Assembly: GCA_022539475.1 (NCBI GenBank)
Contig: VCMS01000008.1
Location: 1-64,000, forward strand
Source: Gracilaria domingensis
Lineage: Eukaryota; Rhodophyta; Florideophyceae; Gracilariales; Gracilariaceae
Length of the DNA stretch: 64,000 nt
Direction: 5' to 3'
Shown here: piece by piece, positions 33,746 through 62,537 of the stretch
How positions within the stretch are numbered: position 1 is the first letter of the stretch
How the letters are laid out: each line of letters begins with the position of its first letter
The notes under the pieces: model-generated
What the model was told of the DNA's origin: nothing
The model's input: only the letters and a program-made list of their open reading frames with translations
Databases searched by the model: none
Position numbers and translations under genes: made by a program

Positions 33746-33767
33746 CAATAAATTTATGCTACTATCT

Positions 33768-36566: not shown

Positions 36567-36669
36567 GTTGAACAGCTATTGCAGTGAAAGGTGTATATCA
36601 ACAATACGTTCGCTCTGGACGATACAAGAACGGATGCGAGCCTTTTAAATGGCGACTTACGCTGGGCAC

Positions 36670-36907: not shown

Positions 36908-36922
36908 CGTACCGGCGGCCGG

Positions 36923-40800: not shown

Positions 40801-40903
40801 TCAGACGAAACGGGCAATGGTTGACATGCTGTTGAAGGGATAAGACTCCTCGGCGAGTAACGAAGGGGCACCCACGCTTCTTATGTGTACAGTAGTAGAC
40901 CAT
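37853..40903 (-). pseudogene. Plavaka-like (CACTA superfamily) transposase, copy A
   Basis: The minus-strand frame starts at ATG 40903 with a zinc-finger-like C/H pattern (YCTHKKRGCPF, HVNHCPF). It continues in shifting frames: 39777-40700, 38473-39801 and down to 37853. Motifs include VAYFPTTL, CHRCKAPP, FEPLHNLHLGISK, DMVFPFIGAFFD and KFHLLDHLVDDIRR...HAHLLF. Breaks are a one-base shift near 39790, a stop near 38473, the satellite foldback insertion at 37852, and a duplication next to an N near 40640. The family resembles the Plavaka/KDZ-like transposases of fungi and algae. It is certainly inactive. Confidence 0.75.
40500..40780. repeat. ~140-bp tandem duplication around a single N
   Basis: The segment starting GCACGGAGTGGGGTCGACGA (about 40506) is repeated at about 40647 with few differences. 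The join carries the only ambiguous base in the window (40640). Either a real duplication or an assembly join. Confidence 0.8.
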
Positions 40904-41272
40904 GGGAAGAAGAACTGAACGAGAAACGACGACAAAGACTGCAAGGGAAGGGCGTCCGAAGGGAGAAGGAGGTCGAGCGACAGTCAATATCGACGTGTTG
41001 CTCAGAACGGAGAATATATTTTGAGTTTAAATCACGTGCTTTCGTTCAAAAAGGAACGTAGGTACACGTCGACCTCAACACAAGGGTGTACTTCTCGTAT
41101 TATCTACCACTAGTTATAAACCTGTGGTTTCCCAACGTTGTACGCTGTACACTTGTCCAATCTCGCACAGAAAAATAAATCTCTTCCCTTCGCCGCCGCC
41201 GCCGCGCCTCCGACGTCCGAACTTCCGTTACCGTCGTGAGCCATGCCATCGATATCATCGCGTTATACTCCG

Positions 41273-41347
41273 CTCCGTCGTACTTTTTCCCGCCCTCCAC
41301 TTTATGGAGGCTCCATAAAGTAGAGGGCGGAAGAAAGTAGGACGGAG
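41273..41347. repeat. Inverted repeat hairpin
   Basis: CTCCGTCGTACTTTTTCC...CTTTATGGAG pairs with CTCCATAAAG...AAAGTAGGACGGAG, arms of about 37 bases and almost no loop. Could be a MITE end pair or a small foldback. Confidence 0.65.
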
Positions 41348-41625
41348 TCATCCGTATCTCAGGGATGTATTCCGTGCAGTCTTTTCGTACGTTCTCCCAT
41401 ATCCTTCCACGTATCTTTGCTCTAAACTAACCAATCCTCACCGCGTTTCTTCGCGCTCTGCGACATGGAAACGGCAGGAAATAAGCTAATCACCCTCAAC
41501 TTCTTCTATTTGTTCAAGATATAGAACGAGTTGAAGGGTGAAAACGGGAACCCGGTAACCCAAACTGACGACTGTAAGTACGCGACCAATAGTTCATTTC
41601 GTTGCGCCATAGGCTCTAGCTCTGC

Positions 41626-42375
41626 CTGTTCGGGATAGGCGATTCTGGTACTTGGTTGAGACATAGGTTTCTGTCTCGTTTATCGCATCTTGCGGTATGT
41701 TTGCTGCATGGGCATTCTCGGTGTCGTTGCTTGTGAGTTCTTGCTTCGAGACCTTTCGCGTTTTACGATGAATGGTGGGCTGGTAATCTAACCGATCACT
41801 TTCCTTCTTCTTCTTCCTTTTGCGAGTTACTAGGTCCCTCGACTTTTCTAGGGCAACGTTTCTGTTTTGCTTTATCAATGGTACGTTCCATCGCAATTCA
41901 AATGTTTCCAACGGAGCATTGACTAACCTATGGATACTTTCTGCTTGCGTATACAGGTAAACGACCAATTTTATTTCATCTCTCCAGATCCATCATCGAT
42001 CTTGAGAGACAAAATGAAATTGGTCGTTTTACTGTCTGACTGTTCGGGATAGGCGATTCTGGTACTTGTTTGGGATATAGGCTAGATTCTCGTTTATCGC
42101 GTCTTGCGGTATGTTTGCTGCATGGGCATTCTCGGTGTCCTTGGTTGTGAGTTCTCGCTTCGACACCTTTCGCGGTTTACGATGATATGGTCGGCTGGTA
42201 ATCTAACCGATCCCTTTCCTGCTTCTTCTTCCGTATGCGAGTTACCAGGTCCCTCGACTTTTCTAGCGCAACGTTTCTGTTTCGTTTTATCAATGGTACG
42301 TTCCATCGCATTTCAAATGTATCTAACGGATCATTGACTAACTTATGGATACTTTCTGCTTGCGTATACAGGTAA
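41626..42375. repeat. Tandem 335-bp duplication with hairpin spacer
   Basis: Copies at 41626-41960 and 42040-42375 start CTGTTCGGGATAGGC and end TATACAGGTAAA, with scattered differences. The spacer (41959-42030) is itself an inverted repeat, AAACGACCAATTTTATTTC pairing with GAAATTGGTCGTTT. Open frames inside are charged and similar to each other but not recognisable as genes. Confidence 0.75.
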
Positions 42376-42417
42376 ATGACTTTTGATGCGGACGTAGCTC
42401 ACGAGTTGCAGGTGCAG

Positions 42418-42570
42418 GTTCCTCAAGTAGGGAACCATGCATCTGGGCATGGTTCCCTACATGAGGAACGGAGAGGATGAGGCGCTTCGCGCCTCATCCT
42501 CTCGGAGTGCGTATGTGTTCTACCGATCCAGCACTATGGTGAAGGTGCAGTCTGCGGCATCTGCCGCAGA
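42418..42570. repeat. Cluster of three near-perfect hairpins
   Basis: First, 42418-42469: 23-base arms (GTTCCTCAAGTAGGGAACC...) with one mismatch and a six-base loop. Second, 42471-42503: perfect 15-base arms (GAGAGGATGAGGCGC) around a three-base loop. Third, 42551-42570: TCTGCGGCA pairing with TGCCGCAGA. They follow each other within 153 bases and lie in no gene. Confidence 0.75.
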
Positions 42571-42869
42571 TTGCGCCTACACCCGCTCCATTATGGGGAA
42601 ATGGTACCTGTAATATAGCGAAGTAGTGGTTAGCAAAAGCGGTCGATAGAAGAATAGATACGAATAAAACGGTATGATTTCATAATGGGGATCATCTGTA
42701 CTAGCACTAGTATTCCATGCGTTGCAGGGTATCATTCCGCAGAAGGTATCGTGTAATGTGCACCTCAATGGAAACTGAACCTAGACTTCGCAAAATACGG
42801 TTCAGGTAGCCCTCGACTAAAGAACTAGCACGAGTGGAAAACCCCCCAGTATTTACTCCACAGAGATTC

Positions 42870-42985
42870 TGGACGACCCAAGCAATTATCTGCAAATTTT
42901 GAAATAATTGATCTCGATATTTTTTCAAAAAATTTACTGGACGACCCTTGCCAATTTCTGGACGACCCTCGCCAAAAACTAGCAT
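42870..42985. repeat. Short direct repeat CTGGACGACCC, three copies
   Basis: The motif occurs near 42870, 42933 and 42957 just before the copy B transposase frame opens. Confidence 0.6.
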
Positions 42986-43009
42986 CTGCAAGAGACAGAC
43001 GACACTTCC

Positions 43010-44560
43010 GTGGGCTGCAATGGATCCTCCAGGTCGTTTCGGTCCATCAGAACATCTATTCTTACTCACGCCAACTCCATCCTAGCTGACATCGAACGCT
43101 CGTTTCCGGCTCCAGGGCTTCATATTGATTTCTCGACATCAGAAAAGGGTAAGTCTCTCAACGGCTTCTTCACCACTGACGGAATCAGAGGCATGCTAGA
43201 AGCAAAGGACTATCGCGCCCTCGACATGGTCTTCCCCTTCATCGGTGCATTCTTCGACCGTTGCTGCGGTGAAGTATCTCCCGCCCCAATAACCACCATT
43301 TTCACCTCTTACGTCGATCTCGTCAATAACGTTCTTCACTACCACACTGCCCCAGAATGGACTGATGATCGCTTACGCTCTTTGGAGACTCTCATCAAGA
43401 ACTTCAAGACTCAAACTGTCTCAGTTTTGGGTCCATACCAGGCCTCCAACTTTCGTACTCTCAAATTCCATCTCCTGGATCACATCATTCCAGACATCCG
43501 TCGATACGGGGGCCCCCATTTCGGTGATGCAGGTGTGTACGAGCACGCGCATCTCCTCTTCAAGAACCACTACCGCCGTACCTCTCGCAGAAGATCAACT
43601 GCGCATAAGGAAACAGTGGACTCAATCCAAGAGTCGCAGGATTTCTTACACTCCATCTCGGTAAGGAAACACTTCTCCATGTCTACCAACTCGGCCAGTC
43701 GTTTGTCGCAGCGGTGTCCCTCCATGGTTCGTGATGGTAGTTCATTATCCCTCTTCGACATCATCACGGCCGACAAGTATCTACGGTCCCATCCAAACGT
43801 CCCGTCATCTGCTCTCACAGATTTGTTCTCCAAAACTACATTGCAGTCCATCAACCAAATCTCTCGCGACGCCCTCTCTTCCTTCCGTACCCTAAGCTTA
43901 GAAACTCTTCAACCGTTGGACAACCCCCATGACATCAAAATCACCGTCGTTAACTCCGCTTACATTGTTTCTGGATTCTGTCCCTCGCTGGATGACTACG
44001 ATCGTCACTTTCAATGCATTAGACTGCGAGAGCCGGAGGTCTCTTTGTGTGAACGTATTTTTGCAACCACTTCTTTCGGCCCTTCCAAGTCCCCAAAATT
44101 CTCTACCGTCCTGGTTAATGGAACTCCTCCTCCCGGTTTTGACTTCCCGACCGCATGGGTATGCAAAGTCTTTGCCCTGGTTCGCTTTAGCAGATGTAAT
44201 CAAAGCAATTCCGATTCTGAATTTGCCTTTGTTCGCTTCTTCGAGGTAACGGAGCCGTTGGATAACATTGACGAATCTTTGAACTGCATTTCCCTCCGCT
44301 GGGCCACGGATGACGAGGAAGATCGCACATTGCAAACCTCCAATTCTCTAAAACGGTCAACAACTGCATCTGTATCCCCATGGTTCGGTCTCGTCCCATT
44401 CTCTTCGATCAAAGGCTCGGTACACATCCTCCGACAAAACTATCCCGCACGCCCCTTTTTCCCTCCATTGCACTGGAAGTTCCACCGATTCTACATTAAC
44501 AGATTCTATCGCAATCCCCGAGCTCGTTTACACTACCATCCAATCACCAAACTTTCGTAA
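43010..44560 (+). pseudogene. Plavaka-like transposase, copy B, N-terminally truncated
   Basis: 516-residue open frame whose first 200 residues align with the end of copy A: SFRSIRTSILTHANSILA, KSLNGFFTTDGIRGMLEA, DMVFPFIGAFFDRCCG and KFHLLDHIIPDIRR. The remainder extends to a C-terminus (FCPSLDDYD, SFGPSKSPKFSTVLV) that is partly preserved in copy A. The zinc finger and the catalytic N-terminal half are missing, so the initial ATG is incidental. It ends 16 bases before the convergent gene at 44577. Confidence 0.75.
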
Positions 44561-44576
44561 CGTAAACCATAATGCA

Positions 44577-47115
44577 TTAGTGACGTTCTATCCAATTCTC
44601 CTCATGTAATCCTTCTTGCACAGACCTTTCCCTCACATCCCTCTCTGCAGTTATGTCGTAGAACATACGGTCTCCCCGACTGCAGCATCCAACATAGCAA
44701 TCCAGTACAGCTCCGAGCTTCTCAGAGATCTCTCCCATAAACACATCTTCTCGGACAGCAAGGTACATTTTCCTTTTCGACGGAATCCAGTAAACCACAG
44801 TGCCCACCCGGTCATCATTTCCATGCCGCGCATCTTCAGCATTCGATGGGCCATTTCTGAACTCTGTTGGATAACTCTGCTGCATGCGGACCCTCACGGT
44901 CTTCAGTATACTCTCAAGTGCCAGTGGTAGATATTTCCCGAACAAGTTGGAGAACAACACTTGTCTCTTACCACCTCTCCCTCGTTCAGACTCTGTCGCG
45001 CGAACAACGGACGCTATCCAGACATCAAGACGTGCCAGATGCATAATTGTTCCATCCACTGGATCCCTCTCTTCGGTATTCCTCGAACTTGTTTGTAAAA
45101 CGTCGTAGCCCATGAACTCACGCAGCACCTCCAAGCTCAGGCTGTTCCGAAAAAGCAAGTCACATGGTTCATCTTCGGTTGCATGATATGGGTTAAAGCC
45201 CGAGAAACATATATCTTCTACCTTCTGAGTTCTCCACGACGACAGAATCTCACATCCATTTGCATCTTTGGGTAGGAGTTTTTCACGTACCTCTCTGGTT
45301 TGTATTTCATACTTGTTCTGCTCCCTTTCATCATTTTTTATCGGGGCCCTTACAAGCATGTCGTAACCTAGTCCCATCAATAACTTCTCCTTCGCATGGC
45401 GTTTTCGAACACCTATTGCATCACTTAAAGCCTGTTTCAACCTTCTGCGCAAACAAATGTCGTGCGTTAACTGTTTCACACAGTCATCTTCCATTTTCAT
45501 TCCTCGGATAGATTCCCAACGGGGCTTCATTACCTCCGTCTCCACAATTTGCATCAACAAATGGTCGCCTCCACCACGTACGAATGGCGTGTACGCCCTC
45601 ATCTCCATGGCAAGATCCATTGGGCACCGTGGCACTATCTCCTTCCCATCAACAACCAGCACACTGTCGTCTTTCTCAGGTCCAACTGTCTCACTTCGGT
45701 TGCCCCAGTTCCTTGCCGGTATACTCATCTCGAAGCATAGCTCTCTTGTCTCGTCTTTGGCGTATTGAAGTATGGAGTCATAGACGGTCTTCGCAACACC
45801 AACAAACTCGTCGTTCACGTCAATGTTGTACCGCTTCCTGCTCTTGTTACTGTCATGTTCGTTCCTTTTCCCTCCACTTCTGAGAGCCTCTCTCAAAGAG
45901 TGTATGAGAACCTCTTGTTCTCTGACCTTAACCTCCAGTTGCTCTATGTTCTTCTAAGCAAGTCGTACGCTCATTTTCAGACTTTGCTTGTCCTCTATTG
46001 TACGATACAGATCTCCCTTCAGTTTCCCGATCTATTCCAAAAGCTCGTATCGCGGAGTAAGGGATTCATCTTCATCTTCTTCCATTGCACCATGCAGGGA
46101 AAAGCTCCGTGACAAAGCACCACGATCAACATCTTTATCGTTCTATACTTCTCTACGGGCGTTTGCTATGACAGGTTGCCGATCGTTCCCCACCCGTCTA
46201 TTCTCATTTCCATGGTTCGTCCTTCTTCTGACCTGATTGAACCTGTTTCTCTGTGACTCACCTGTGACTGGTGTCGGTTGTATCTCGTCTTCGTCTTCGT
46301 CTTCCTTATGTCTGGACCCAATATGAGGGACGGAATCATGCCTGCCTTCGATGGGAGCCATATGCGTTGCATTTCCGGCGTCCACGTTATCGTTCGCCTC
46401 CACATTATCCTTGTCCTCGACGTCACTTGGGATATCTACTGCGTCCGTGGACTCCCGCTCCTTTCTTCCACTGCCTTTCTTGGCACGAGAGACACTCTCA
46501 TTCATTTTCTCGTTCCTCTTCACTTTTCTCGAATCATAACTGTTACGTTCTGTTCCGGCAGCGCTTCTGGGTATCTCCCTATCCCCAGGTTCGGCTCTAG
46601 GTTCGGCTCTCACGATGGCGCAATCCACGGTTTCCATCTCCGCATTGTCATCCGCAGTTCTCACCTTGTCGAAACAATCATCGATACGAGGACCTTCTGT
46701 TCCTCCACTGCCTCTTGTCCTTCTTACATTCTGACGTACGGCCGTTCTTCTCTTATTTCCTTTCATCGCTTTGACATCTACATTTCCATCATCACTGACC
46801 CTTGGCTCTTCCATTGCAGCCATGTGGCGTGTAACAGGCCCACGCATTGCACTATCCTTGGCTTGAACGGTTTCACTTACTGTGCGTTCCGTAGCGCATG
46901 TGGAAGCTCCTGACCTCCTTCTCGGTTTTACTTCCGATACTGTAGATGAAGATTTGGTTTGCGAAGTCCAGCACGAGGTGCTCGGCCTCGGCTACCTCTC
47001 CCATTAGTAGCACTACTTCGTGAGACGACCGCGCTCCTACGTTTGGCCACCCTAGTATCCCAGCGCTCCGGCGGTACCGATGCCTTTCGCAGTTTACCAC
47101 CTGCATGCTCCGCAC
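44577..47115 (-). CDS. Probable multi-exon gene, charged coiled-coil protein, unknown
   Basis: Three minus-strand coding stretches appear to belong together. The last (44577-45955) is open from a good acceptor (TTGCTTAG just upstream of 45955), begins with a coiled coil (KNIEQLEVKVREQEVLIHSL) and encodes about 460 residues without recognised motifs. The middle (about 46143-46847) is highly charged and disordered (KEDEDEDEIQP). The first (about 46884-47101 from an ATG) encodes a more structured segment (VVLLMGEVAEAEHLVLDF) ending at the donor ACA|GTAAGT. Exact joins are not proven. The convergent copy B transposase ends only 16 bases away. Confidence 0.45.
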
Positions 47116-47128
47116 GTTGAGGGGCCAT

Positions 47129-47592
47129 CCGAGATCCTTCGGCCTTCGTGCGCGGTAGTATTACGGAACAGATATAGAAACGTGAACGATACTGAAGGTA
47201 TATGATTGAGAGTGATATGTGAGGGTCACGTACTCGGTGTGCAGGACTGATATGTGAAGGGGAGGGGAATTTAACCTCGTACTGCATATATGGCGAAAAG
47301 CATTCTGCAGCATTTGTGGCGGATCGGCATTCAATTTTTGGACCTTTCCCGGGTCCATATTCCGGACTTGGTCCGATTTTCCCGGATGTTGCGCCCTGCA
47401 TATACAAGTACGGCACTTTCAACGATCTTTCATACCACTATATGCATCAATATGTTACACAGTACAGCTTGAGTGTACATATGAGTAGTATTTCTGCAAT
47501 CATAGCACAAGTGTTCAATACAATTTACTTCAACAAAAAGCTTTTCTCACTACATTGAGCCCATACGAAGTTCAAGGACATTGTCTGAGAAC
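47129..47592. other. Intergenic, no supported gene
   Basis: Contains several short palindromic bits (GGACCTTTCCCGGGTCC) but no gene I can support. Confidence 0.5.
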
Positions 47593-48744
47593 CTAGGTTA
47601 ACCTTTCCCAAGGATATGTGGGTCCATAGTCAACGTAAATTTCGTCGTGCTCCTCAATGTCCCTTGAGGCCGTGACTACGAGGAGTCTGTAGTTCTCCAA
47701 AAGCCCCAAAGTTGTAGCCTGATACTCTGTGGGCCGGCGAATGAATACATTTGGTTTGTGTGCCATGTTAGAATCCATTTCTTCCAATTCCTTGTCCTCA
47801 TCACCTTCACGATATGATGCGTCATTGATATAGCCCGCTACACAGAAAGGAGCAGGAACTATCCAGGCATGACCAGCGTTGACTTCAGTATCATAATGCG
47901 GGAGAGTGTTGTACATTTGCCCCTTCACCCTCACTTGCATGCAATACTTCCTGAACCGAGATGCAGTGGCCCCCAGCATTCCGTCTCCATACGTCAAATG
48001 TGTGGTACTGCGTCGGCTTAGATCATGATACACCAAGGTCCCATAAAAGTATCCAATAACCTCCCCTTCGGAAAACGCCCTACTCGTAAATACTCCATTT
48101 CCACTTGCTGCATGTTTGATATTCGACTTCTTCACATAGAGCCATAGCGATGTCACCTCGACAGAGAGTAAAGTGTGACTGTCCAACGTAGTCATCTTCC
48201 CTTGTAAGGCAAGTGGCCACTCATGGAACGGTTTCTCTTTGTACGTAGTGATAAGACCAGGTTCATTCCAATAGGTGGATAGGTACGAAATGATATGGAA
48301 TGGGAAAGATTGGTACGATGGGAATCCCTTGGGTGCATTCCATATAGTCGAAGTCTTTCGTTTCCGTTCAGGAAATTTGGCATCCACCACATAAGACGCT
48401 TGAACTACCTCATTCGTAACCGGTTCTTTCATCTTCAATTCATTACGCCACACCTTTCTTGCGTAATGCACAATAGCATTGTGCTTGGCATGAGAGAAAC
48501 ACTGCTCATCTTGCTCACATCCAATGAAACGCCGAGGCCCCTTAATATCCATACATGCCAGCGCGCACGAGAATGTCCCGGAGTAGAGATCAACCACAAC
48601 ATCCCCGGGTTTCGAGAACCTCGCTATCAGCTCCATCAGTAGCTGCCTCGACTTTTGTTCTGGACGAGCCTTCGCGGTTCGAATTCTTCTACCACTCTTC
48701 ACTCTCCATCGGAGACTCCCCCAGGCGTAAGATTTGGAACCTGG
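47593..48744 (-). CDS. Methyltransferase C-terminal motif region plus SET domain
   Basis: The frame is open from 48744 and overlaps the end of the upstream methyltransferase frame in a one-base-shifted register; there is no good ATG at its start. The first ~70 residues (ARPEQKSRQLLMELI, SKPGDVVVDLYSGTF, CEQDEQCFSHA) match the KPE...LL...PGD-V-D-F-G-G segment that follows the DPPY motif in beta-type adenine or cytosine DNA methyltransferases. A SET domain follows: FTSRAFSEGEVIGYFYG, AGYINDASY and EHDEIYVDYGPTY (about 47610-48110). The usual NHS of SET domains reads NDAS here, so lysine methylation activity is uncertain. It is probably the second half of one polypeptide with 48699-50759. Confidence 0.65.
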   Translation of the reverse strand, partial: PGSKSYAWGSLRWRVKSGRRIRTAKARPEQKSRQLLMELIARFSKPGDVVVDLYSGTFSCALACMDIKGPRRFIGCEQDEQCFSHAKHNAIVHYARKVWRNELKMKEPVTNEVVQASYVVDAKFPERKRKTSTIWNAPKGFPSYQSFPFHIISYLSTYWNEPGLITTYKEKPFHEWPLALQGKMTTLDSHTLLSVEVTSLWLYVKKSNIKHAASGNGVFTSRAFSEGEVIGYFYGTLVYHDLSRRSTTHLTYGDGMLGATASRFRKYCMQVRVKGQMYNTLPHYDTEVNAGHAWIVPAPFCVAGYINDASYREGDEDKELEEMDSNMAHKPNVFIRRPTEYQATTLGLLENYRLLVVTASRDIEEHDEIYVDYGPTYPWERLT

Positions 48745-50759
48745 TCAATGATAGAATAGTGCCCAGGATAGCGAGCTGAAACGTAGTTGAAGTTCTGATA
48801 GTTCACAATTACCTTCTGTTCCGCGTACGAGTTTCCATTCCTCACGCCATGCACGGCGTACTCCGTCGCCCCAAACAGGCGAGTAGTATTACGCGCAGGT
48901 TTCTTCAAGGGGTTCGAACGAGAACGAATGAAGTTCATGGGCGTCGAATCCACTAAGAATGATGCGGTTTTCTTTCCGCTTGCGTCCTCCGACTTGTGCT
49001 CTCGCAAAATCTCTTCCCAGTCTCCAAACTGGTCGATACTGCAGAACAAAACGAAATGTCCTCCTGGTCGAAGCATGGATGCCATGATGTCCGCAGTATT
49101 GTCCATATCATCGTCAGCCAATTCGTCGTACTCGCTGTCGCGGATGCCATATGGTGGGTCTGTGAGCGCGAACTGAACGTTGCATTCCAAAGATGTATCC
49201 GATGGGAAGATAGTACCATGGGCCTCCACCAGTTCGTCATATCCGACACAATGCATTGAGAATTGCTTCTCCATGCTTCCTCGCACCACATCTAGAGCAT
49301 TTAACGTGCGCGTGTCATCAAAGTCATGAGGGGGGAGAACCCCATCTGGAACGTTATCTTTCGCCCCAACAGAGGCACCAGGTGTATCACCTTCTTCATT
49401 GTCGCTATCGAGGATGACGATGACATCGGAGTTAACCGATCTTTTCCCTGCGGCGTTCCTCTTGGAGGAGCTCGGAATCTGTATCGAGTCCTCAACCTTA
49501 ACCGTGACGGTATTACTTCCTCCATCCTGCCCTGAAGGAGCGGCCCTAGGGATAAGTCGAGATGGTTGGAAGTTATGTACAGACATCGCTTGACGAATAG
49601 GAGACACGTACTGTTCGGAGAATACATTGAAACGGGGTGGTACTCGTGCGGGGCGGCCAGGTCTGAAGCTTTCCAACAAATTCCATCTTGACGTTGGGGA
49701 CATTTGGTATAGGAAGCCATTCAACACAATCTTGCTGAAATCTGCCAAGAATTCCTTTGCCAACTCCTGTAAGTTGGCGTCGATAGTATCCGGAAGAGTA
49801 TGAACCCAAGAAACGGTGTCGTTCATATCCAACGTGGGTTTCAGTTCTTCCCCCAACGTATGAAAAGCTGACTCCGGACTGTAACCAACAGAGCGGGATT
49901 CAATGACATGGAACCCAAGCGACTTCTTTTCTACAAGCAGGTATGGCAGCAACATCTGCTCACCATCACCAAAGCCTAAGGTTGAGGCAAAGAAATCCCA
50001 TCCCTTACGAATCGTTTGCACTGCATGTGCCATCCGTCTCCCGTGCGTCTCATTCGAAGCTATGTAGCCGTCGACGAACTGCACAGCTCTATGGGTTCCC
50101 TTCCCGGTCCTTCCTCTCTTCGCCGCTGGGAGATTTCTCTCCGAAGTTATATGCTTCACGAAAGAGAGATAGAGTAACTGCTGAAAACGAGTGGGAGGCC
50201 CAATCCTGAACGTAGTTCTCTTCGTCTGCTTACTGCCTGGACCATGTCGTTTGAAAAGGTCATTCCAGAAAGCCCGTTCTATGAACGAGTTACTGTTGTC
50301 GACATCCTTTTCAAGACTCCAGGTAAACAAATCTCTCACGCGCCGATCAGAATTCTCGTCGTCTAGATCAGTGATACGCGTATATTTGTAGACCCTGCTC
50401 AGAAAACGCACGTCCAGACAGATCTTCGTGAGTTCTTTTGCGGAGTAGTTTTGGAAAGGACCCTTGACCGCAGTGGTGATGAACTCTCGTGCACATGCCA
50501 GGTGTTCACGGTTTGATAAAGCGTATTCCACAACTTCCGTGTACCCAACTTCACGCGGATTACCAGTACCACTTCTTGAAGCGGCATACGCATCTCGCAA
50601 CTCAATGAACAACCCCCAACATTTCAAGAAACGCGTTGCCATGCTGGCTGAATCGAACGACGCGCTAGAGGATGCGCTAGAGGATACCGTGCAATGGTTC
50701 TCATCGGCCAGCACACTCTGCTTAACAGTCAGAGGAGCGTCATTTCCGGTGGACGCCAT
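48699..50759 (-). CDS. DNA N6-adenine/N4-cytosine methyltransferase, DPPYG part
   Basis: 686 residues from ATG 50759 (ATGG context; the frame is open upstream). The N-terminal ~500 residues show no domain I recognise. An acidic Ser-rich segment with VIVILDSDNEEGD resembles a SUMO-interacting motif (inference). The catalytic part near the end holds the DPPYGIRDSE motif (about 49140-49165), ADIMASMLRPGGHFVLFCS and a FNYVSARYPG segment. The AdoMet-binding motif expected after the DPPY block in beta-class enzymes is found only in the next, one-base-shifted frame (47593-48744), so the two frames form one enzyme. A missing base in the G5 run at about 48718, a small intron, or frameshifting could link them. 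Confidence 0.7.
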   Translation of the reverse strand: MASTGNDAPLTVKQSVLADENHCTVSSSASSSASFDSASMATRFLKCWGLFIELRDAYAASRSGTGNPREVGYTEVVEYALSNREHLACAREFITTAVKGPFQNYSAKELTKICLDVRFLSRVYKYTRITDLDDENSDRRVRDLFTWSLEKDVDNSNSFIERAFWNDLFKRHGPGSKQTKRTTFRIGPPTRFQQLLYLSFVKHITSERNLPAAKRGRTGKGTHRAVQFVDGYIASNETHGRRMAHAVQTIRKGWDFFASTLGFGDGEQMLLPYLLVEKKSLGFHVIESRSVGYSPESAFHTLGEELKPTLDMNDTVSWVHTLPDTIDANLQELAKEFLADFSKIVLNGFLYQMSPTSRWNLLESFRPGRPARVPPRFNVFSEQYVSPIRQAMSVHNFQPSRLIPRAAPSGQDGGSNTVTVKVEDSIQIPSSSKRNAAGKRSVNSDVIVILDSDNEEGDTPGASVGAKDNVPDGVLPPHDFDDTRTLNALDVVRGSMEKQFSMHCVGYDELVEAHGTIFPSDTSLECNVQFALTDPPYGIRDSEYDELADDDMDNTADIMASMLRPGGHFVLFCSIDQFGDWEEILREHKSEDASGKKTASFLVDSTPMNFIRSRSNPLKKPARNTTRLFGATEYAVHGVRNGNSYAEQKVIVNYQNFNYVSARYPGHYSIIDQVPNLTPGGVSDGE

Positions 50760-50992
50760 GTAAGAACTGAGAATCGGAAAGGACGCGAAGTAAACGAGTA
50801 TTGTGAAACGGTAGAAGTTTCGGAGATGTTTGAATGGGTGGGAAGCGTCGGAAACGTCGGGAAGCGTCGGAAACAATGGTGGAGAGCGCGGTTGCGACGG
50901 ATTACCGAGAACTGAGCGGGTAATGAAATAGAGAGACGAGAGTGGGATCTAAACACATCAAACCGGTGGGGCACCTCAGTATGTGCAGTGCA

Positions 50993-51388
50993 TTATATGT
51001 CTAGTATGTAAAACCAACGTAGAAAACACTGGGTTCGTACATCTTTGAACATCGCCCGAGCGCCGTGTGGGAACCGCGGTTCGCCGAGTTCATAGCCGAG
51101 ATCATAGCTATGATCTCGGCTATGAACTCGGCGAACCGCGGTTCGGGCACGGCGCATCTGAGGAAACGCCACGTGTATACCGCCGAAAGGACCCCCCCTG
51201 AGGACCCCCCTGGAGGACCCCTTGCTGGCGTTTATGTGGGCAGTGACGTCGAATAAACGGGAGAGCGATGGAGACGCGGATGACACTTCGGACACATTGT
51301 GTAGCAAGCGTAGAAGATGGAGGGGAAGGGCTTGAGGAGGAGAGACGATGCGGTGGGAGCGGAGCAGCGCACGGAGGGCGGCGGCCAT
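50993..51388 (-). CDS. Presequence-like ORF inside the foldback element
   Basis: 131-residue frame from ATG 51388. Its first ~50 residues come from the unique centre of the foldback (MAAALRALLRSHRIVSPPQA...), basic and alanine/leucine-rich like an organelle presequence. The rest reads through the inverted-repeat arm and is not protein-like. Best seen as a captured gene fragment, not a functional gene. Confidence 0.3.
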   Translation of the reverse strand: MAAALRALLRSHRIVSPPQALPLHLLRLLHNVSEVSSASPSLSRLFDVTAHINASKGSSRGVLRGGPFGGIHVAFPQMRRARTAVRRVHSRDHSYDLGYELGEPRFPHGARAMFKDVRTQCFLRWFYILDI

Positions 51389-51672
51389 CGACAGGGCGTC
51401 ACTTATTCACTGCCCACATAAACGCCAGCAACACCACCAGGTAGTGGTGGTGTGGGTGAGAACAGGTGCTTTGGTGCGCATTGTGTAGTAGAAGTGGTTT
51501 CCAGGGGGTCCTCAGGGGGGTCCTTTCGGCGGTATACACGTGGCGTTTCGTCAGATGCGCCGTGCCGGAACCGCGGTTCGCCGAGTTCATAGCCGAGATC
51601 ATAGCTATGATCTCGGCTATGAACTCGGCGAACCGCGGTTCCCACACGGCGCTCGTGCGATGTTCAAAGATG
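51040..51672. mobile_element. Foldback (Pack-MITE-like) element with nested palindromes
   Basis: Inverted arms 51040-51212 and 51501-51672 are almost identical (start CATCTTTGAACATCG). Each arm contains its own near-perfect palindrome of about 76 bases centred on ATAGCTAT, with arms such as GAACCGCGGTTCGCCGAG. Inside, a second inverted repeat (TGCTGGCGTTTATGTGGGCA at about 51222 and its complement at about 51413-51432) encloses a unique core. No target duplication is obvious. It lies between the divergent methyltransferase and ParB-domain genes. Confidence 0.85.
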
Positions 51673-51922
51673 ATGAAAGGCGGGGACAGTGGTCAACCAG
51701 GACGGAATCAGACATTGATCCAACCATTTATAACCATCAGGAACTGTACCCACACTGCTCACGTGGGCATTGCAGCCGTTTTGAACGTGAGTGGTTGCGT
51801 TTATTGTGCTCACGCGAGAAAGGGCGGAGATTCGAACACGAGCGGTTGCAACTTCACGGGAGCAAACGTACGATTTGAAGAACACCAGGACTCGTGTATA
51901 TCACACACACTGGCACCATATA

Positions 51923-54730
51923 ATGGATATGAGGGGACTGGGAAAGGGTCAAATGAGACGCTCTCGAAAGGTGAGAAAGCCTCGACGAACCATGGCACCA
52001 CAACTTCGGAGCGGGACCAAAACTGCTGAACCGAACGCAGCGACGGGGAACGCATCCACAGCTATGAAGTCGAAGCCCGCACCAGGCGAAGAAGTGACCT
52101 TGTTGTTGGGAGGGGCAGGAGGGAACAAAGCAGCGATTGGGAAAGCTGTTCTCGTTGAAGTGGACGCTGGTGGAGGGAAGACAACGTTCAGAAGGGAAAT
52201 GCATGGACATGCTCTGCAGGGAAAACCAGGGGAAGATGTAGTTGGCATATGGCGAGCGAAGATATCTCACGAGCTTGACACTCCCTATCTCTATCCCTTT
52301 AAGTGTACCGATGAAGATTCTGTTCCGAAGACATTGAAGGACATGAACAGGCCCGGTTTCTACGCCTGGGACCTGAACTTAATATCTAAGGTGGGTGACG
52401 TCGTAAGCGCTGATGAAGGGGACAAGGGTGCTCCGAGTTCCAAATTCGTCGCCCCTGAGAAGCCATCGAATACTGCTGGGAAACGGGTGCGAGTGGTAGA
52501 ACCTAAAACTCCATCCAGTGCCCAAAAGCGAATGCAGATGAAAGTGGCTCATGTGAAAACCCCGTCGAATGCTAAAAATCCCCAAGGCGGGAAACAAGCG
52601 CCAGTACCAAAGCTGAAAACACCATCGAACGTTCACGGTGGTGGAAAGCAGATGCAAGAATTCAAGATGACCACGACCCCAGAGAGTGCTGTATCGGCAT
52701 TTCGTGAACAAACTGCTACGATTGTGCAGTCTGGAGCATCGAGGAACAGCACTGTGGAAGCTATTACTCAGGCTGGAAATCGCAGTGGAGTGACAATGGA
52801 AGTGATTGACGTGGATGAAGACGAAGACGTGGTTCTAGTGAAGGAAAGCCTTGGAAGCAACGTCAATGAACTCTTTGATGAAGGTGATGTGATACCTCCT
52901 GATGATGTCGATACGAGTTTAGCGAGTTTGGTATTTGACTTAGATCATTACGAGTATGTGTCTGTTCAAGTCGATATTGAGCTCATTCAAGTTCCGGAAA
53001 TGACTGTGAGAGGGTTGTTCCGGAATCATGTCGAGGCTCTGAAAGAAGAGATTGGACGCAAAAGCTTCTTACAGGCACTTGGGACCATGAGCATTGCTGT
53101 TCTGTCTCAGGATGTGTCCGAGAAGGACATAGTGCAGAACAATCGCTTGAAAGTGAATTGTGTGCTGATTGATGGAGCTCATCGTCATGTAGCACTCAAA
53201 GAGCTCTGTGAATCTATGCCCAACATTAGGAATCTATGTGGAGGTCTTTCTGTTTCGCTGTGGAAGAGAAAAGATGGACAGAAGATGATCACGAGGGAAA
53301 TCTTGAGCCTTGGCAATGTGCTAAACGATGGATTGAAGCAAGCTCGTCTTATGGGTTTTGCTGACAAGGTGCATTCTATTGTGTCATTTATAAGGGTCCT
53401 GGTTGAGGAAGAGAAGAAGGACTTGAGCAAGATGACGAGGACCTCTGTCGCAGGTGCACTAAGTGTTTGCGGTATCATTGGCCAGTACAATATCAAGCAT
53501 TTGGCAAGATTTGCAGAGATGGGGTTGAAGGTGGCGAGAAGTCCTGGATTGCTGGAACATTTGGAGCGGATTTGTGGGGACTACCATGAGATTGGAATTT
53601 CTTGTATATCAAGTGATGAATTCTTTACCATGGATGAGCATACAACCCACTTCACGCTCGACACTCTGGTTGCATACTTTTCCAGGAGGCGAGTGTCGAA
53701 ACTGACGGGTCGTTTCGAAGACGTACGCAAATACTTCTTTATCTGCTGCAGGAGGCCTCAATCTTTGGCAGAAAAGCTTTCGAAGAAGACGAAAGTTACA
53801 TTGGCAGAAGCGTATGCCATGAAGGTGGAATTGACAAAGTTTGAAATGCGCACCGTTCGTGAGTACCTTGCAACACAGGCAGCACGAATTGAAGTACCTT
53901 CGAATAAGAAGCTCTGGGAAGGAAGGATTTCGAGAAGAGTCTGGATTGCTCGTGATAAGCTGGCAAAGAGTTTAGGGGTGGATATGTTGAAACCTGCCAC
54001 TGGTACCACGCCGACTGAACCACAGTCTGAGACCAAAGCGGTAGACGAGTCTACAACGCAGAGAATGGCCACACGTTCGGCAAGTAGGAAGGCCAAAGCG
54101 CCAGTGCGTAAGGGCTCTAAGGACTCTGATGTAGAAAGTGAAGAAAAGATGCCATCGAAGACAAGAAGCATGAGGAGTTCAAGACGAAGCCGTCGACGAA
54201 GGAATGCAATGAGAGACGTGAACCCTAATCAACGGAAGAAGTCAAGGACGGAGGGTATTCAATCTGTTCAGGATGAAGTTATCAGTCATCTGCGGAGTCT
54301 TGGTGCGAAGGGGGTGAGAAACGTGTTGAAAAGTCATCAGATATCCATTGGCAGCGACACAGACTCAGATGGAGTACCAATTGTGGTCTCACAGGCAGAG
54401 AACACTGACCCGTTCGATGACACAGTACCGCAGGTGTTGGCGCCAGGTCTGAAGAAGGCTGAAGAAGTAGCATATGAAGGTGACGATTCGTGGCTAAAGT
54501 TGGTGAAGACCTTACCATGCAAGTGGCCGACTGGAGTGGAGAATGTCATTAAATCTGTATACCCGTGGATGGATGCGATACATCTCCAGAAGCAACACCG
54601 AGGCCACTTGTTGGACCCCAAGGACTTTGAAAGTGTGCACCATGCAGTCTTTTGGCATGCAGCGTATCATGGCCATAAACTCCTGAACGCGGCAATGGGA
54701 GGCATGGAGGTCGACGAGAAGACGTTATAG
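51923..54730 (+). CDS. ParB-like-domain protein, ends in TAG
   Basis: 935 residues from ATG 51923; an alternative start at 51992 has a better context (ACCATGG). The N-terminal ~300 residues are basic and low-complexity with repeated PKTPSS/KTPSN motifs. A central domain contains VLIDGAHRHVALKEL (about 53163-53210), the DG-HR signature of the ParB/sulfiredoxin-like fold, preceded by a NNRLKVN strand. It continues with helical segments resembling the helix-rich region that follows ParB domains. The C-terminal region has a basic cluster (SMRSSRRSRRRRN). The stop is TAG at 54728-54730. The same frame continues open to 55765 and encodes an oxygenase-like domain. Divergent from the methyltransferase across the foldback. 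Confidence 0.7.
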   Translation: MDMRGLGKGQMRRSRKVRKPRRTMAPQLRSGTKTAEPNAATGNASTAMKSKPAPGEEVTLLLGGAGGNKAAIGKAVLVEVDAGGGKTTFRREMHGHALQGKPGEDVVGIWRAKISHELDTPYLYPFKCTDEDSVPKTLKDMNRPGFYAWDLNLISKVGDVVSADEGDKGAPSSKFVAPEKPSNTAGKRVRVVEPKTPSSAQKRMQMKVAHVKTPSNAKNPQGGKQAPVPKLKTPSNVHGGGKQMQEFKMTTTPESAVSAFREQTATIVQSGASRNSTVEAITQAGNRSGVTMEVIDVDEDEDVVLVKESLGSNVNELFDEGDVIPPDDVDTSLASLVFDLDHYEYVSVQVDIELIQVPEMTVRGLFRNHVEALKEEIGRKSFLQALGTMSIAVLSQDVSEKDIVQNNRLKVNCVLIDGAHRHVALKELCESMPNIRNLCGGLSVSLWKRKDGQKMITREILSLGNVLNDGLKQARLMGFADKVHSIVSFIRVLVEEEKKDLSKMTRTSVAGALSVCGIIGQYNIKHLARFAEMGLKVARSPGLLEHLERICGDYHEIGISCISSDEFFTMDEHTTHFTLDTLVAYFSRRRVSKLTGRFEDVRKYFFICCRRPQSLAEKLSKKTKVTLAEAYAMKVELTKFEMRTVREYLATQAARIEVPSNKKLWEGRISRRVWIARDKLAKSLGVDMLKPATGTTPTEPQSETKAVDESTTQRMATRSASRKAKAPVRKGSKDSDVESEEKMPSKTRSMRSSRRSRRRRNAMRDVNPNQRKKSRTEGIQSVQDEVISHLRSLGAKGVRNVLKSHQISIGSDTDSDGVPIVVSQAENTDPFDDTVPQVLAPGLKKAEEVAYEGDDSWLKLVKTLPCKWPTGVENVIKSVYPWMDAIHLQKQHRGHLLDPKDFESVHHAVFWHAAYHGHKLLNAAMGGMEVDEKTL

Positions 54731-55765
54731 GGGGATGGACTGAAGAACGACTCTCTTGCGTATGTCTATTTTGTGAAGAAGAACGTCGAGCTTCGAGACA
54801 GAGGTTTCTGTATTCTGGACGGCTTTGCATCGGATGGAGAGTTGGTGAAGCTGATAGAGAGTTTGAGCAAGCTCATTGACGGGGATGTTAGTGTGGAATT
54901 ACTGGACTTCTTCCGAAAGGACTTCGAGAGGGCTCCAGACCTTAGGATACCAGAGAACCGAATCACATGGATACCGATCATCAACGCAGATGGTGGGAGG
55001 TACATGACTACGAGAAGAGGCATAGTGGATGACATGGAGGCAGCCGTAGAAAGACATGTGCTTGTGAAGAAGAGAGCTTTACTGGATGCCCGACTGGGAC
55101 AGATATGTGCTTTAATGGGTTTAAAAGATAATAGGGTGGAAAAGGAGAGGATGTATGCGCCGAAGACGGGGGGGAGGGTGTTATGCACTGCAGTTGGATG
55201 CAAGCGGCAGCAGTTACATACGGATTTCCCGACCTTGGCGAATGAGGATAAGCTGGAAGAAAAGAAGAACCCGGGGTACTTTATGATGGTGTCCGGAAGT
55301 GTGTCGTTTCCAATTGGGGTATGTGAAGGGTCTCATACACACTACGTAGTTACTCCCAAGGCATTTGAAGGTTTGGCACGGGGGATGTTTGTGAGGAAGA
55401 TTTTCGTTCCGCCTAAGTCTATATTTATTGGAAGAGGTGATGTGTTCCATGCAGGCGCTTCAAATGAGGATGGAAGATTCCCCGAGATTCCCTTGTCTCG
55501 TTACCACATGTACATGGTACCTGAGAAATACAACCTCCCGGATGCGGTACACCTTAACCCACACTTTCGACCTCAGTTCAAGGAGGATGAAGACCTGGTT
55601 AGTATGAAGGAGAAGAGGAAGAATCCAGAACCGTCGAATTTGGAGGAGGAGAATGATGAGGTGATAGTAGAGGAAGGGGAAGAACAGTATGAAGAAGATG
55701 ACGAAGATGAGAATTATGAAGTGGAGGAGATTGAAAACGATCTTGAGGATGGCGAAGAGGACTGA
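54731..55765 (+). CDS. Fe(II)/2-oxoglutarate oxygenase-like region, in frame after TAG
   Basis: This frame is in register with the ParB-domain gene and separated from it only by the TAG. No ATG lies near its start (GTG 54773 at best), and the residues just after the TAG (DGLKNDSLAYVYF) already look like protein. The fold signature is LRDRGFCILDGF at the N-terminus, QLHTDFP (the HxD iron ligands, about 55210), GRGDVFHAGAS (distal histidine, about 55434-55465) and SRYHMYMVP (the arginine that binds 2-oxoglutarate). The last ~80 residues are a Glu/Asp-rich tail. The substrate is unknown; related enzymes oxidise nucleic acids, proteins or small molecules. Confidence 0.65.
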   Translation, partial: GDGLKNDSLAYVYFVKKNVELRDRGFCILDGFASDGELVKLIESLSKLIDGDVSVELLDFFRKDFERAPDLRIPENRITWIPIINADGGRYMTTRRGIVDDMEAAVERHVLVKKRALLDARLGQICALMGLKDNRVEKERMYAPKTGGRVLCTAVGCKRQQLHTDFPTLANEDKLEEKKNPGYFMMVSGSVSFPIGVCEGSHTHYVVTPKAFEGLARGMFVRKIFVPPKSIFIGRGDVFHAGASNEDGRFPEIPLSRYHMYMVPEKYNLPDAVHLNPHFRPQFKEDEDLVSMKEKRKNPEPSNLEEENDEVIVEEGEEQYEEDDEDENYEVEEIENDLEDGEED

Positions 55766-56042
55766 GTGAATATGTGATGAAACTTTGTAGTAATCTATGT
55801 GTCGAATATAGTTTCGAAGTAAATGATCTTGTGAATCGAGAGAAAGTTTAAGAATTGTGGAAGCGACGACTCTACCCAAGATTGAAGGGTAGGATAGGAT
55901 ACCATACCAAACACTTCAATCCTGGAGAGCGTCATGAACAAGTGGGAACTATGTTTGTAGAGAAGAGATTCTGTTTAGTTGAAACATGTATCAGTTATGT
56001 ACTTATGTTCGTATACTACTTGTCTCGCACTTGGTGAATACG

Positions 56043-57245
56043 TCAGCCAGAAGGCAGTAGATGTTGTGTCGGGGGTCTAGGGTGCTCACCAATGGCGCAC
56101 AAGTATCGCTTTGCGTTGATTCTTGGTGCGTGTTTGACGACTCCGGAGCATACAAGTAGTACAATGAACAAGGTGTTTGTGAGGAGGGGTGGGATACCTC
56201 TGTACGAACCAAAGGATTCGGGGTCCAAAGACTCGGAGAGTGTGTGTGCGAAGAAAACTGGGACCACTCTGTTCAGAAAAAGTCTGATAGAAAGCAGGAA
56301 ATCCTGAAGGAACAAAGCTTTCCGGAACGAGTTTAGAATACAACGGCAGTACGGATTAAGCCCTCTTCGCCGGTATACCACCCAATTGGAGAGCGGAACT
56401 ATGTTGTTGAACGTATGTTTTGTAGAGAAATAGATCCCAAATGTGTTGATGAGAATGGTGAAGAAGCCGAAGAAGAAACCGCCGGGGAAGAAGGAAATAC
56501 ATGCAGTTTTGAGAGAATCCATGACATCGATTGGAGGAGGACGGAGCTGATAGGTGACGAAGATAGAGAGGTTGAGGACGATAAGCCCACCGATGCCCAT
56601 GCCGAGGTATTTATTCCTCAGTGCCAAAACGGTGCTGGATGTGTGCGACGGAGTCATTGGACCATATGCGAGTCTACCATACCTTGTGGCGTGAAGAGAG
56701 AATGCCAATTCAAACAGAATAATGTGAAACATAGTTTCGAGCATGCTGTACAGGATGGTGAATCCCAGTTGTGTTTGGCGGTAGGAGCGATCGTAGAGAA
56801 GAGCGTGTGTTGTGAGAGGCTTTATAATCCCATAGAGAGCTCCTATGGCTACTGAAACGAAGAGGGAGAATGCCAAGAGAGAGGATAGCGAGAGCATGTT
56901 CAGGGGATTATGTGAATAAGACCGAGCCTCTGACATGTAGTTGGGTAGCTCTGAAAGATTCCCAATTGTGTGGAAGAAGGGAGGATGTTCAAGGATTCGG
57001 TCATGAATTGAAACTTCGTGAAGTATGTCATAAACATCACTGAGTTCATCCAGCAGTTCGGGGGATAAAAGGGTCTGGACTCCTCGAACCGTGGCTTCCC
57101 CGGTGTCAACGTCGTACTTCAGTTGAAGGCAGTCGTCGAAGGTGATGTATGTCCTATGGGGAAATGCGTTGAGATGGATAGGTATGAGAGCAGTTTGGTT
57201 GCGAAGCTGTACATGCGATACCTTGTGGGTGTTTTGGAAGGCCAT
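56043..57245 (-). CDS. Multi-pass membrane protein, unknown
   Basis: 400 residues from ATG 57245, no introns needed. A soluble N-terminal ~130 residues are followed by about five hydrophobic segments (LLAFSLFVSVAIGALYGII, TILYSMLETMFHIILFEL, LIVLNLSIFVTYQL, FFPGGFFFGFFTILINTF, TNTLFIVLLVCSGVV). I recognise no family. Convergent with the oxygenase-like frame, 277 bases apart. Confidence 0.6.
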   Translation of the reverse strand: MAFQNTHKVSHVQLRNQTALIPIHLNAFPHRTYITFDDCLQLKYDVDTGEATVRGVQTLLSPELLDELSDVYDILHEVSIHDRILEHPPFFHTIGNLSELPNYMSEARSYSHNPLNMLSLSSLLAFSLFVSVAIGALYGIIKPLTTHALLYDRSYRQTQLGFTILYSMLETMFHIILFELAFSLHATRYGRLAYGPMTPSHTSSTVLALRNKYLGMGIGGLIVLNLSIFVTYQLRPPPIDVMDSLKTACISFFPGGFFFGFFTILINTFGIYFSTKHTFNNIVPLSNWVVYRRRGLNPYCRCILNSFRKALFLQDFLLSIRLFLNRVVPVFFAHTLSESLDPESFGSYRGIPPLLTNTLFIVLLVCSGVVKHAPRINAKRYLCAIGEHPRPPTQHLLPSG

Positions 57246-57884
57246 TGTGAGCTCTGCTGCCTGTGAGTAGGTAGGAAAGAGGAGAAGAAATGAAGAAAGA
57301 AGGGGCGAGGAGAAGATATATTTATTGAGAACGAAACGAGCAGATATTACCTATAAAGAGGTGTATCGAAGGAGCTATATCTATGTTTTGTTTCCTTTAA
57401 GGCTTGTAAATTTGAAGTGAAGAAGGTGTTCATAAACGAGTGGCGAACTTAGCTTCTGTGATGGAAAAGCTATGAAGAGACGGAGTACATGAAGAGTAAA
57501 ATGTAGGGCGATGAAGAGGACGGAAGAATCATGATATGATGGTAGTGGTAGGATTTCATTTCATATACTACTGGCATGAACCATGTATGAAAAGGGACGC
57601 CCTTCTCGCAACGGTTGGGAGAACATGGAGAATGAGAAGCATAGAGAGTGTTCAAAAGTGAAGAATTGTGCTAGTAAATATGAAAATAATTGCGATGCAG
57701 AGGTTGGACGGATATGAGCGGGTGCGGCGGTACTACAGTGTCATGGGACGAAAGCGTCTACCCTTGTACACCGTGATCGGTTTGCGAAGGGACGATCAGC
57801 GAGTTCTGTTCTTTTCGGCTTCCCTGATTTCTCTTCTTTCGATATCCCTTTTGCTCTTCTACCAGATCTTCTACCAACGCGACC

Positions 57885-58698
57885 ATGAGCGATGACGATT
57901 CGCGTTCGAACATTAGGTGGCCGTGGGAGTCAGACGAAGGGGTACGGTCGCACAAGAAGTTAAAGAGTGTGTTCGAGGAGGAGGAAGAAAAGGACGAGCT
58001 GGACTGGTGGGCCACTGTAGTGCTGGGGTGTGCCGGAGCGATGGGGACGCGCATGGGAGAGGACGTGGGTCGACTGACGAAGAAGGTGGCAGGGTTCGTG
58101 GTAAGGGAACTGAGGGGGATGAAAGAGGATCAGAAGAAGATGATGAAACGCATTGAGAATCTGGAGGGGAGCTCGAAGGAGGTGAATGGGAGGAAGAAGG
58201 GGCGGGGTAGGGGGTGTGGAGGGAACGCCGGTAACTCCGGCGCCGAAGACGAAGATCGTGAACGGCGTTGGGGTAGGAGTGTGCATCGGAAGCGAGGACG
58301 AGGATGCGAGAGACTTTGTACCGGCGACGGATAGTTTTGGGGCGGATGAGGTGATGGAGGGAGAATTGGTGAGGAAGAGAGGTCTGAAGAGGAAGGTTGG
58401 CGAGAAGAGGCCGATCCAACCGAGGAGTGTGGGGGTAGAAGAGGATGAAATTCAGCCGAAGGTGGAGAACAAGAAAGGAAAAGGGGATAGTAAGAAGAGG
58501 ACACGGGTTGGGTTCAGGACTGTTCCGAACCCGGTGTGGAAAGGGAGCAGTGTTGTTGGATACGAGGAGAAGTGGAGCTGGGAGGATGTTGTGGAGGATG
58601 AGGAGGAAACCGTTGAGAATGATGATGGGAAAGAATTTCGTACGCTATCATTCGCGGATCTGGAGGTAGAGGAAGGAGATGAAGGTGCTTTACTTTGA
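57885..58698 (+). CDS. Coiled-coil charged protein, one frameshift
   Basis: From ATG 57885 the frame encodes an acidic start, a WWATVVLGCAGAMG segment and a coiled coil (LRGMKEDQKKMMKRIENLE). It then changes frame near 58190-58200 in a G-rich run and continues as EGTPVTPAPKTKIVNGVGVG to the stop at 58698. The coil-PVTP-KTK-glycine order matches the gene at 32205-33134. The frame break may be a sequence error, a small intron or decay. Function unknown. Confidence 0.5.
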
Positions 58699-58699
58699 T

Positions 58700-59160
58700 T
58701 GAGGTGATACAGTAGTTGCCGGGTTGATGGAGGTAGAAAAGCGGTGCGGGAATGAATGTGCGCAACTACCATTTCATGAATGTTGTACTAGCCAGAGTTA
58801 GTTTACATTCATTATTTGTGTTTATTTGCAATCGACAAGTATGCAAGTGCCGTTGGTAGCTTCCAGATCGAGCTACCACCTAATCCGTCTGAGTATACTA
58901 GGTACAAAAACTTTCATGCCATGGAGGTGAACTAGCAATTATGTCCGCTTTCACTCATTCTACAAATTCTGTAGTATTGCTTGAATAAATGAAAGTATGG
59001 TATCCAAAAAAATTTCTTTTTTTGGCTTGCACATAGCCGTACATTCAATTCTTTGCACATTTTTTAACGATTCAATCCACAAAATAGCATTCTAGCCTCT
59101 TTACATAGCGTTCCGGAAACACAGAGGCACGTGTCGTGGTACTCCCTTCTCCGCTCCACC
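58700..59160. other. AT-rich spacer, no supported gene
   Basis: No gene-like frame or recognised repeat. Confidence 0.5.
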
Positions 59161-62435: not shown

Positions 62436-62506
62436 ATGTCGTCGGCGTCGACGAGCGCTTCGTCCGCGCCCGAGCCCGCGCCCGCGCCCGCGCCCGCGGC
62501 GGGCGC

Positions 62507-62537
<31 letters not shown>

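Follow-up and report, generated by a model that had tools for sequence, protein, structure and literature searches.

Petroll et al. 2025 (Curr Biol) reportedly described giant Plavaka DNA transposons in the red alga Bostrychia moritziana. For giant EnSpm elements of red algae that have several accessory genes, the part of PMC12477816 covered here cites Petroll et al. 2025, and the same part describes Sola1-1 of Ectocarpus, a 21.5-kb DNA transposon with an accessory protein that combines ParB and an N4C/N6A methyltransferase. Among fungi, excerpts of Kojima 2025 (PMC12730594) report that Plavaka and KDZ transposons encode TET/JBP dioxygenases and that Plavaka target duplications are 2 or 3 bp long. 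Here, we analyzed a 64,000-nucleotide stretch of the red alga Gracilaria domingensis (contig VCMS01000008.1, positions 1 to 64,000; hereafter, the window), in which a preliminary description had noted a divergent pair of genes, one for a DNA methyltransferase joined to a SET domain (MTase-SET) and one for a ParB-like domain joined to an oxygenase-like domain (ParB-oxygenase). The pair is cargo of a high-copy giant cut-and-paste DNA transposon of the Plavaka type, and this cargo probably marks the DNA and chromatin of the element itself, likely keeping its promoters open against host silencing.

The principal features of the window copy, which belongs to family 1 of the element, are as follows (+, forward strand; -, reverse strand).

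43002..59127 (+): family 1 transposon copy, left-truncated, delimited by blastn against 10 other copies; full length about 20 kb
43010..44560 (+): Plavaka transposase, C-terminal half, matching the C terminus of the full 1023-amino-acid open reading frame (ORF) of copy C202 (L021:6022-9090)
47593..50876 (-): MTase-SET gene, with an N-terminal helical region, a predicted beta-class N6/N4 DNA methylase with a DPPY motif, and a SET domain
51040..51672: palindromic center of the divergent promoter, with two 96-bp spacerless palindromes at 51060-51155 and 51557-51652
51791..55765 (+): ParB-like/oxygenase-like gene (ORFs 51791-54730 and 54773-55765), with an in-frame stop at 54730 in the window
59113..59127 (-): right terminal inverted repeat (TIR), CCGGAAACACAGAGG, with 1 mismatch to the 15-mer CGTCTGTGTTTCCGG

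Homologous blocks between the window and the 10 other copies are mostly about 98% identical (89 to 99%) and all lie within 43002-59128 (blastn). The left edge is reached by 5 of the 10 aligned copies and the right edge by 8, with internal gaps in several. In copies C202 and C120, homology extends 3.8 kb farther left and ends in the TIR CGTCTGTGTTTCCGG, which is the right end inverted; the exact 15-mer occurs at 73 genomic places versus 1 for the reversed control. From TIR to TIR, copy C12 measures 19,977 bp and encloses the transposase, the MTase-SET gene, and a piece of the oxygenase gene. A 2-bp target duplication was present in 6 of the 12 family 1 end pairs read, against a chance expectation of about 0.75 (12/16); age, rearrangement, or incorrect pairing may account for the six pairs without it. 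The earlier suggestion that the genes are the cargo of a large element is thus borne out by common boundaries, inverted repeats, 2-bp target duplications, and the enclosure of the transposase and flanking genes in one unit. A cellular gene pair is ruled out by the boundaries and TIRs that the copies have in common. The same genome yields 122 match rows for the oxygenase protein and 119 for the C-terminal MTase-SET protein (best candidates scored only, some rows being pieces of one copy), so the gene pair is not a product of chance. The nearest named protein is FGB62_128g110 of Gracilaria domingensis, whose two parts match contig C128 of the same genome at 99% and 97%, consistent with this red alga as the host.

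The window copy keeps only the C-terminal half of its transposase because it is cut at 43002, the exact end of an adjoining element. The full 1023-amino-acid ORF of copy C202 matches the Pfam family PF18759 (Plavaka) with an E value of 8.9e-24, passing the cut-off, and the Plavaka domain is found at 123 places in its own genome versus 0 of 14 control genomes. CHRC at 383, HLLDH at 661, and E at 685 of the C202 transposase fit the pattern of Kojima 2025 (PMC12730594), which has C(2)C and H(3-4)H with an acidic residue after them. Because the termini, CGTCTG..CAGACG, are those of neither PlavakaA (TGT..ACA) nor PlavakaB (CATCA..TGATG), the elements are filed under neither fungal Plavaka lineage.

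The divergent layout given in the preliminary description is confirmed, with MTase-SET (-) at 47593-50876 and ParB-oxygenase (+) at 51791-55765, about 0.9 kb apart. In the window, MTase-SET is broken near 48700 by a frame change (ORFs 48699-50876 and 47593-48702, both on the reverse strand). Each of the two window ORF pairs represents one protein because other copies have single stop-free open frames, of 1118 amino acids for MTase-SET in copy C12 and of 1326 to 1327 amino acids for ParB-oxygenase in copies C434, C140, and C61. The four domain calls fared differently: methylase (PF01555) and SET (PF00856) are upheld by profile matches, ParB is weakly matched by phrog_3264, and the oxygenase is a motif-based call with no profile.

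By profile and predicted fold, the first protein is a predicted beta-class N6/N4 DNA methyltransferase fused to SET. The methylase part matches PF01555 (E 1.3e-14, C12 copy) and has the DPPY motif, with an S-adenosylmethionine motif after it, and a predicted fold characteristic of the beta class. Its fold matches list both N6A and N4C enzymes, the fold being common to both; N6-adenine is the more likely methylated base over N4-cytosine. The SET domain matches PF00856 with an E value of 2.7e-7, above the curated cut-off, and the fold test retrieves SET7/9 (E 5.1e-5, protein P0013). Canonical SET domains carry the motif NHxCxPN and a catalytic tyrosine; here, N-[DE] replaces NHS in 14 of 14 sequences, and a tyrosine occupies a D-Y-G-like site in 13 of 14. 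Relatives were confirmed for the methylase part only, in 3 of 56 viral-contig stretches and 5 of 98 prokaryote-genome stretches, with no match beyond that part.

No Pfam ParB family matches the second protein, and of the 7984 candidates scored in a protein search with its ParB-like region, not one reached E 0.001. The family 3 homologue gives weak matches to phrog_3264, "ParB-like partition protein" (E 0.0014), and to GmrSD_N (E 0.12), and a D-G-x-H-R motif in the ParB-like region is common to families 1 and 3; the ParB identity is weakly supported. The motif of 2-oxoglutarate/Fe(II) dioxygenases is HxD...H...R. The putative oxygenase is assigned on the HxD...H pattern only, with H149 present in 5, D151 in 6, H226 in 6, and R243 in 4 of six sequences compared. 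For proteins P0001-P0005, Pfam gave no family at E values up to 10, TET/JBP included. Searching the PDB with the oxygenase profile returned 16 chains, the best at E 0.06 and antibody chains where named, and relatives of the oxygenase were confirmed in 0 of 9 viral-contig stretches and 0 of 17 prokaryote-genome stretches.

Three families of the element share one gene order, with the transposase (forward), MTase-SET (reverse), and ParB-oxygenase (forward) following one another. Oxygenase matches fall into identity groups: 24 other near-full-length matches at 93 to 97%, a second group mostly at 62 to 71% but in part below that, and, at about 46%, a large third one. Linkage was counted from best-match lists, so the counts are lower bounds, with same-strand and downstream placements as controls. 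For families 1 and 2, the 122 oxygenase rows reduce to 80 loci (minus 36 family 3 rows and 6 pieces), the 119 MTase-SET rows to 97 (minus 11 family 3 rows and 11 pieces), and the 50 transposase rows of the same genome to 45 loci scored (minus 5 pieces). At least 45 of the 80 oxygenase loci have an opposite-strand MTase-SET gene 2 to 12 kb upstream, versus 0 on the same strand and 1 downstream, and the other 35 have no partner among the matches listed; at least 29 of the 45 transposase loci have a convergent MTase-SET gene, 27 of them at 3.0 to 3.9 kb. For family 3, 15 of 150 SET rows were dropped (other SET types or families), all 84 main oxygenase rows were used, and 45 of 123 Plavaka rows were dropped (families 1 and 2 or weak, picked by eye). 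An opposite-strand SET gene is paired with at least 18 of the 84 oxygenase loci, with 0 on the same strand and 1 downstream, and a convergent Plavaka match lies at at least 24 of 135 SET loci, in 21 cases at 4.46 to 4.50 kb. Genes occurring independently and scattered would, according to the preliminary description, have refuted its reading; the linkage at no fewer than 45 of 80 loci speaks otherwise, and such scatter is rejected by the fixed order and placement in families 1/2 and 3.

In a comparison of families 1 and 2 with one copy pair per gene, the ratio of nonsynonymous to synonymous substitution rates (dN/dS) comes to 0.08 (oxygenase), 0.09 (MTase/SET part), and 0.10 (a piece of the transposase); these values are rough, the proportion of synonymous differences (pS, 0.63 to 0.72) being near saturation, but the ratio of the uncorrected proportions (pN/pS) is 0.20 to 0.25. 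Purifying selection acts on the cargo about as strongly as on the transposase. Within the family, the window oxygenase compared with that of copy C61 gives a pN/pS of 3.7 on very few changes, as expected of a decaying copy, a value that is hardly informative on selection. The cargo genes could also be captured passengers that are useless to the element, and an apparent epimerase-like host fragment in the family 3 derivative described below indicates that capture happens; however, the dN/dS of 0.08 to 0.09, like that of the transposase, already contradicts this explanation, and with the order conserved in three families we regard it as very improbable.

The element that adjoins the family 1 copy is a second one, with the following features.

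31767..43001 (-): shortened family 3 derivative, with TIR ends at 31767 and 43001, abutting the family 1 copy
35643-36575: start of its ParB gene, 97% identical over 983 bp to the family 3 ParB gene
36977..37787: family 3 palindrome array, with units of about 109 bp that have long palindromes at their centers (core GTCGTGTTAGGGTAGCTACCCTAACACGAC), located upstream of the family 3 ParB gene
37739-40700: transposase remnant, with a Plavaka match in 38473-39801

The flanks of this derivative (...AT and AC...) show no 2-bp duplication, and a 2-bp target duplication was present in 5 of the 5 family 3 end pairs read. Genome-wide, family 3 ends number 478 on the left (exact) and 493 on the right, with 0 for the controls. 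Pairing 91 left with 100 right ends, and leaving out 9 listed left ends beyond contig C63, gave at least 46 end pairs among the first listed ends, spanning 6.4 to 24.3 kb (median, 13.6 kb; mean, 14.3 kb). Ten of the 46 are 19 kb or longer and 12 are 10.1 to 10.9 kb; from this spread of lengths, shortened family 3 derivatives are common. As a rough estimate (478 left ends at the 14.3-kb mean), family 3 may make up about 9% of the 78-Mb genome. The right end of the family 1 copy on contig C200 (stretch L030) runs into sequence that shares 92% identity with the family 3 end at window position 31767, an apparent chimera or nested insertion. Inside the derivative, the translation of 33740-34120 (-) resembles, by eye, the C-terminal part of ribulose-phosphate 3-epimerase, apparently a captured host gene fragment, and 34285-35388 is a 367-amino-acid ORF that is reductase-like by eye, with no Pfam match and no match to the family 1 accessory gene.

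The central promoter of family 1 contains two palindromes 497 bp apart, nested in a larger inverted repeat with 158-nucleotide arms. At least one exact palindrome center is found in 10 of 10 copies and two in 5 of 10; in copies C25, C200, and C20, exactly the stretch between the palindromes is missing, as if lost by recombination between two direct copies. The family 1 core has 110 genomic sites at up to 3 mismatches (control, 0). The family 3 array differs in sequence from the family 1 palindromes, with the TAGCTA center mostly kept, and its core has 272 exact sites genome-wide (control, 0). A scan of the whole window (half-arms of at least 15, mismatch up to 6%) found 7 spacerless palindromes, all upstream of the ParB-oxygenase genes of families 1 and 3, versus 0 comparable ones in 20 first-order Markov resamples of the window. 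Compared with the first 50 sites listed, the family 3 core lies inside 13 of 30 end pairs, 4.6 to 5.8 kb from the transposase-side TIR. The palindromes are candidate ParB sites, and by position their candidate link to the ParB gene extends to family 1 and to the family 3 derivative in the window; in family 3 at large they were seen in shorter derivatives and not in copies of full-length size. Alternatively, the cargo could target host genes or competing elements in trans, as offense or host manipulation, instead of the element itself, and enzymes that work in trans could be of use to the numerous shortened derivatives; however, the long palindromes of the window all belong to elements and precede a ParB gene, and paired element ends enclose 31 of the 50 family 3 cores listed, which makes such a role improbable.

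Under self-marking, the ParB-like protein would bind the long palindromes of the divergent promoter at the element's center and would spread or recruit from that point, so that the fused oxygenase is aimed at the element; the partner would methylate bases and, through its SET domain, also histones or some other protein. The element would likely benefit by having its promoters kept open against host silencing. We likewise infer that the cargo constitutes a modification system, as the preliminary description proposed. A more specific, partition-like epigenetic system, in which the ParB-like protein sits on palindromic "parS" arrays of the element's central promoter, spreads along the element, and delivers a DNA oxygenase while its companion writes DNA-base and histone methylation, is a tentative possibility. 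If it were true, the short derivatives would keep the palindromes and be marked in trans, and the element would be, to our knowledge, the first transposon with a self-contained system for marking both DNA and histones. The main rival to self-marking is that the cargo times or limits transposition, with methylation of ends and palindromes coupling excision to replication and the ParB-like protein repressing the divergent promoter (autoregulation). Dam methylation times some bacterial transposons in this way. The operator-like location of the palindromes in the common promoter fits this explanation, and with very many coexisting copies self-limitation could pay; however, it leaves the SET domain or the oxygenase unexplained on its own, and we consider it possible, if rather doubtful.

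Several results weigh against self-marking. The MTase-SET gene was not found in the window derivative 31767-43001 and is therefore not needed in cis. The exact family 3 core lies in 13 of 23 end pairs shorter than 19 kb and in 0 of 7 pairs of at least 19 kb. An 18-bp core has 384 sites; read by eye, the first 50 of them, which extend to C35, add 2 shorter pairs and again 0 of 7 long ones. The family 1 palindromes are no better conserved than their flanks (2.3 to 2.9% versus 1.5%). In the second protein, ParB is weakly supported (best match, phrog_3264 at E 0.0014), the putative 2-oxoglutarate arginine is R in just 4 of 6 sequences, the oxygenase is matched by no family of Pfam or NCBIfam and by no solved structure with credible sequence similarity, and its structure model is poor (predicted local distance difference test score, 34). 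The missing matches and poor model would also suit a second gene that is not a ParB-oxygenase at all, both calls being motif look-alikes in some other, fast-evolving transposon protein. The phrog_3264 match and the retention of D-G-x-H-R and HxD...H across distant homologues, the latter with exceptions, argue against this, and we judge it unlikely. With element ends in the hundreds and defined palindromes as candidate binding sites, self-marking can be put to direct test, and the element offers a concrete, sequence-defined system for asking whether transposons set DNA and histone marks of their own.

The flanking genes at 44.6-47.1, 56.0-57.2, and 57.9-58.7 kb, which had been thought possible members of the module, do lie inside the repeat unit, where the following accessory features were recognized.

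44577..46847 (-): accessory gene (ORFs 44577-45896 and 46143-46847), inside the common repeat unit
56043..57245 (-): accessory gene for a protein of 400 to 435 amino acids, membrane-protein-like by eye
58186..58698 (+): short ORF near the right end, inside the repeat in the 8 of 10 copies that reach the right edge

Copy C273 has a 570-amino-acid ORF over the region corresponding to about 45.7-47.4 kb; this ORF has no Pfam match above the cut-off. An ORF of at least 416 amino acids corresponds to the 56043-57245 gene in 8 of 10 right-hand stretches of copies, and its protein has no Pfam match. The accessory genes of families 1 and 3 do not match each other. Elsewhere in the window, 4367-12027 and 22574-24988 hold gag-pol type ORFs of Gypsy-like long terminal repeat retrotransposons (by eye), and a TauD-type dioxygenase ORF lies outside the elements at 1054-2121 (PF02668, E 6.3e-11). 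An RsmI-like methylase gene occupies 61118-62737 (PF00590, E 4.6e-30), and the G+C content near it, in 62001-64000, reaches 75%, the window maximum.

The methylase resembles the beta-class enzymes CcrM, M.BceJIV, M1.HpyAVI, and bdelloid N4CMT in fold and DPPY motif; unlike them, the Gracilaria enzyme has SET and a long N-terminal region joined to it and belongs to the cargo of a eukaryotic transposon. Giant red-algal Plavaka elements are, reportedly, already known: those of Bostrychia are reported to be like the present one in their red algal host, Plavaka/EnSpm-type transposase, giant size, and several accessory genes, whereas the present host is Gracilaria, one more red alga with giant elements of the Plavaka type. 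Algal transposons that encode ParB-methylase proteins are likewise already known (PMC12477816, in the part covered). As far as that part goes, Sola1-1 is likewise a DNA transposon of an alga, encodes ParB-like and DNA-methyltransferase domains in a gene opposite to the transposase, and has the same proposed role; it differs in its transposase superfamily and in having ParB and the methyltransferase in one protein, whereas the Gracilaria element has them on two divergent genes, partnered with oxygenase-like and SET domains. Fungal Plavaka elements, within the excerpts covered, share the Plavaka transposase, a putative DNA-directed dioxygenase, and 2-bp target duplications; theirs is a TET/JBP enzyme, whereas the Gracilaria element has no TET/JBP profile match, other termini, and, in addition, methylase, SET, and ParB-like domains. 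The covered portion of PMC12695648 makes no mention of ParB or a red alga, and that of PMC12502185 none of Plavaka, CACTA, or methyltransferase. Within the literature searched, to which Petroll 2025 and Iyer 2011 do not belong, the SET fusion, the ParB-oxygenase partner, the conservation across three families in Gracilaria, and the palindromes appear to be new.
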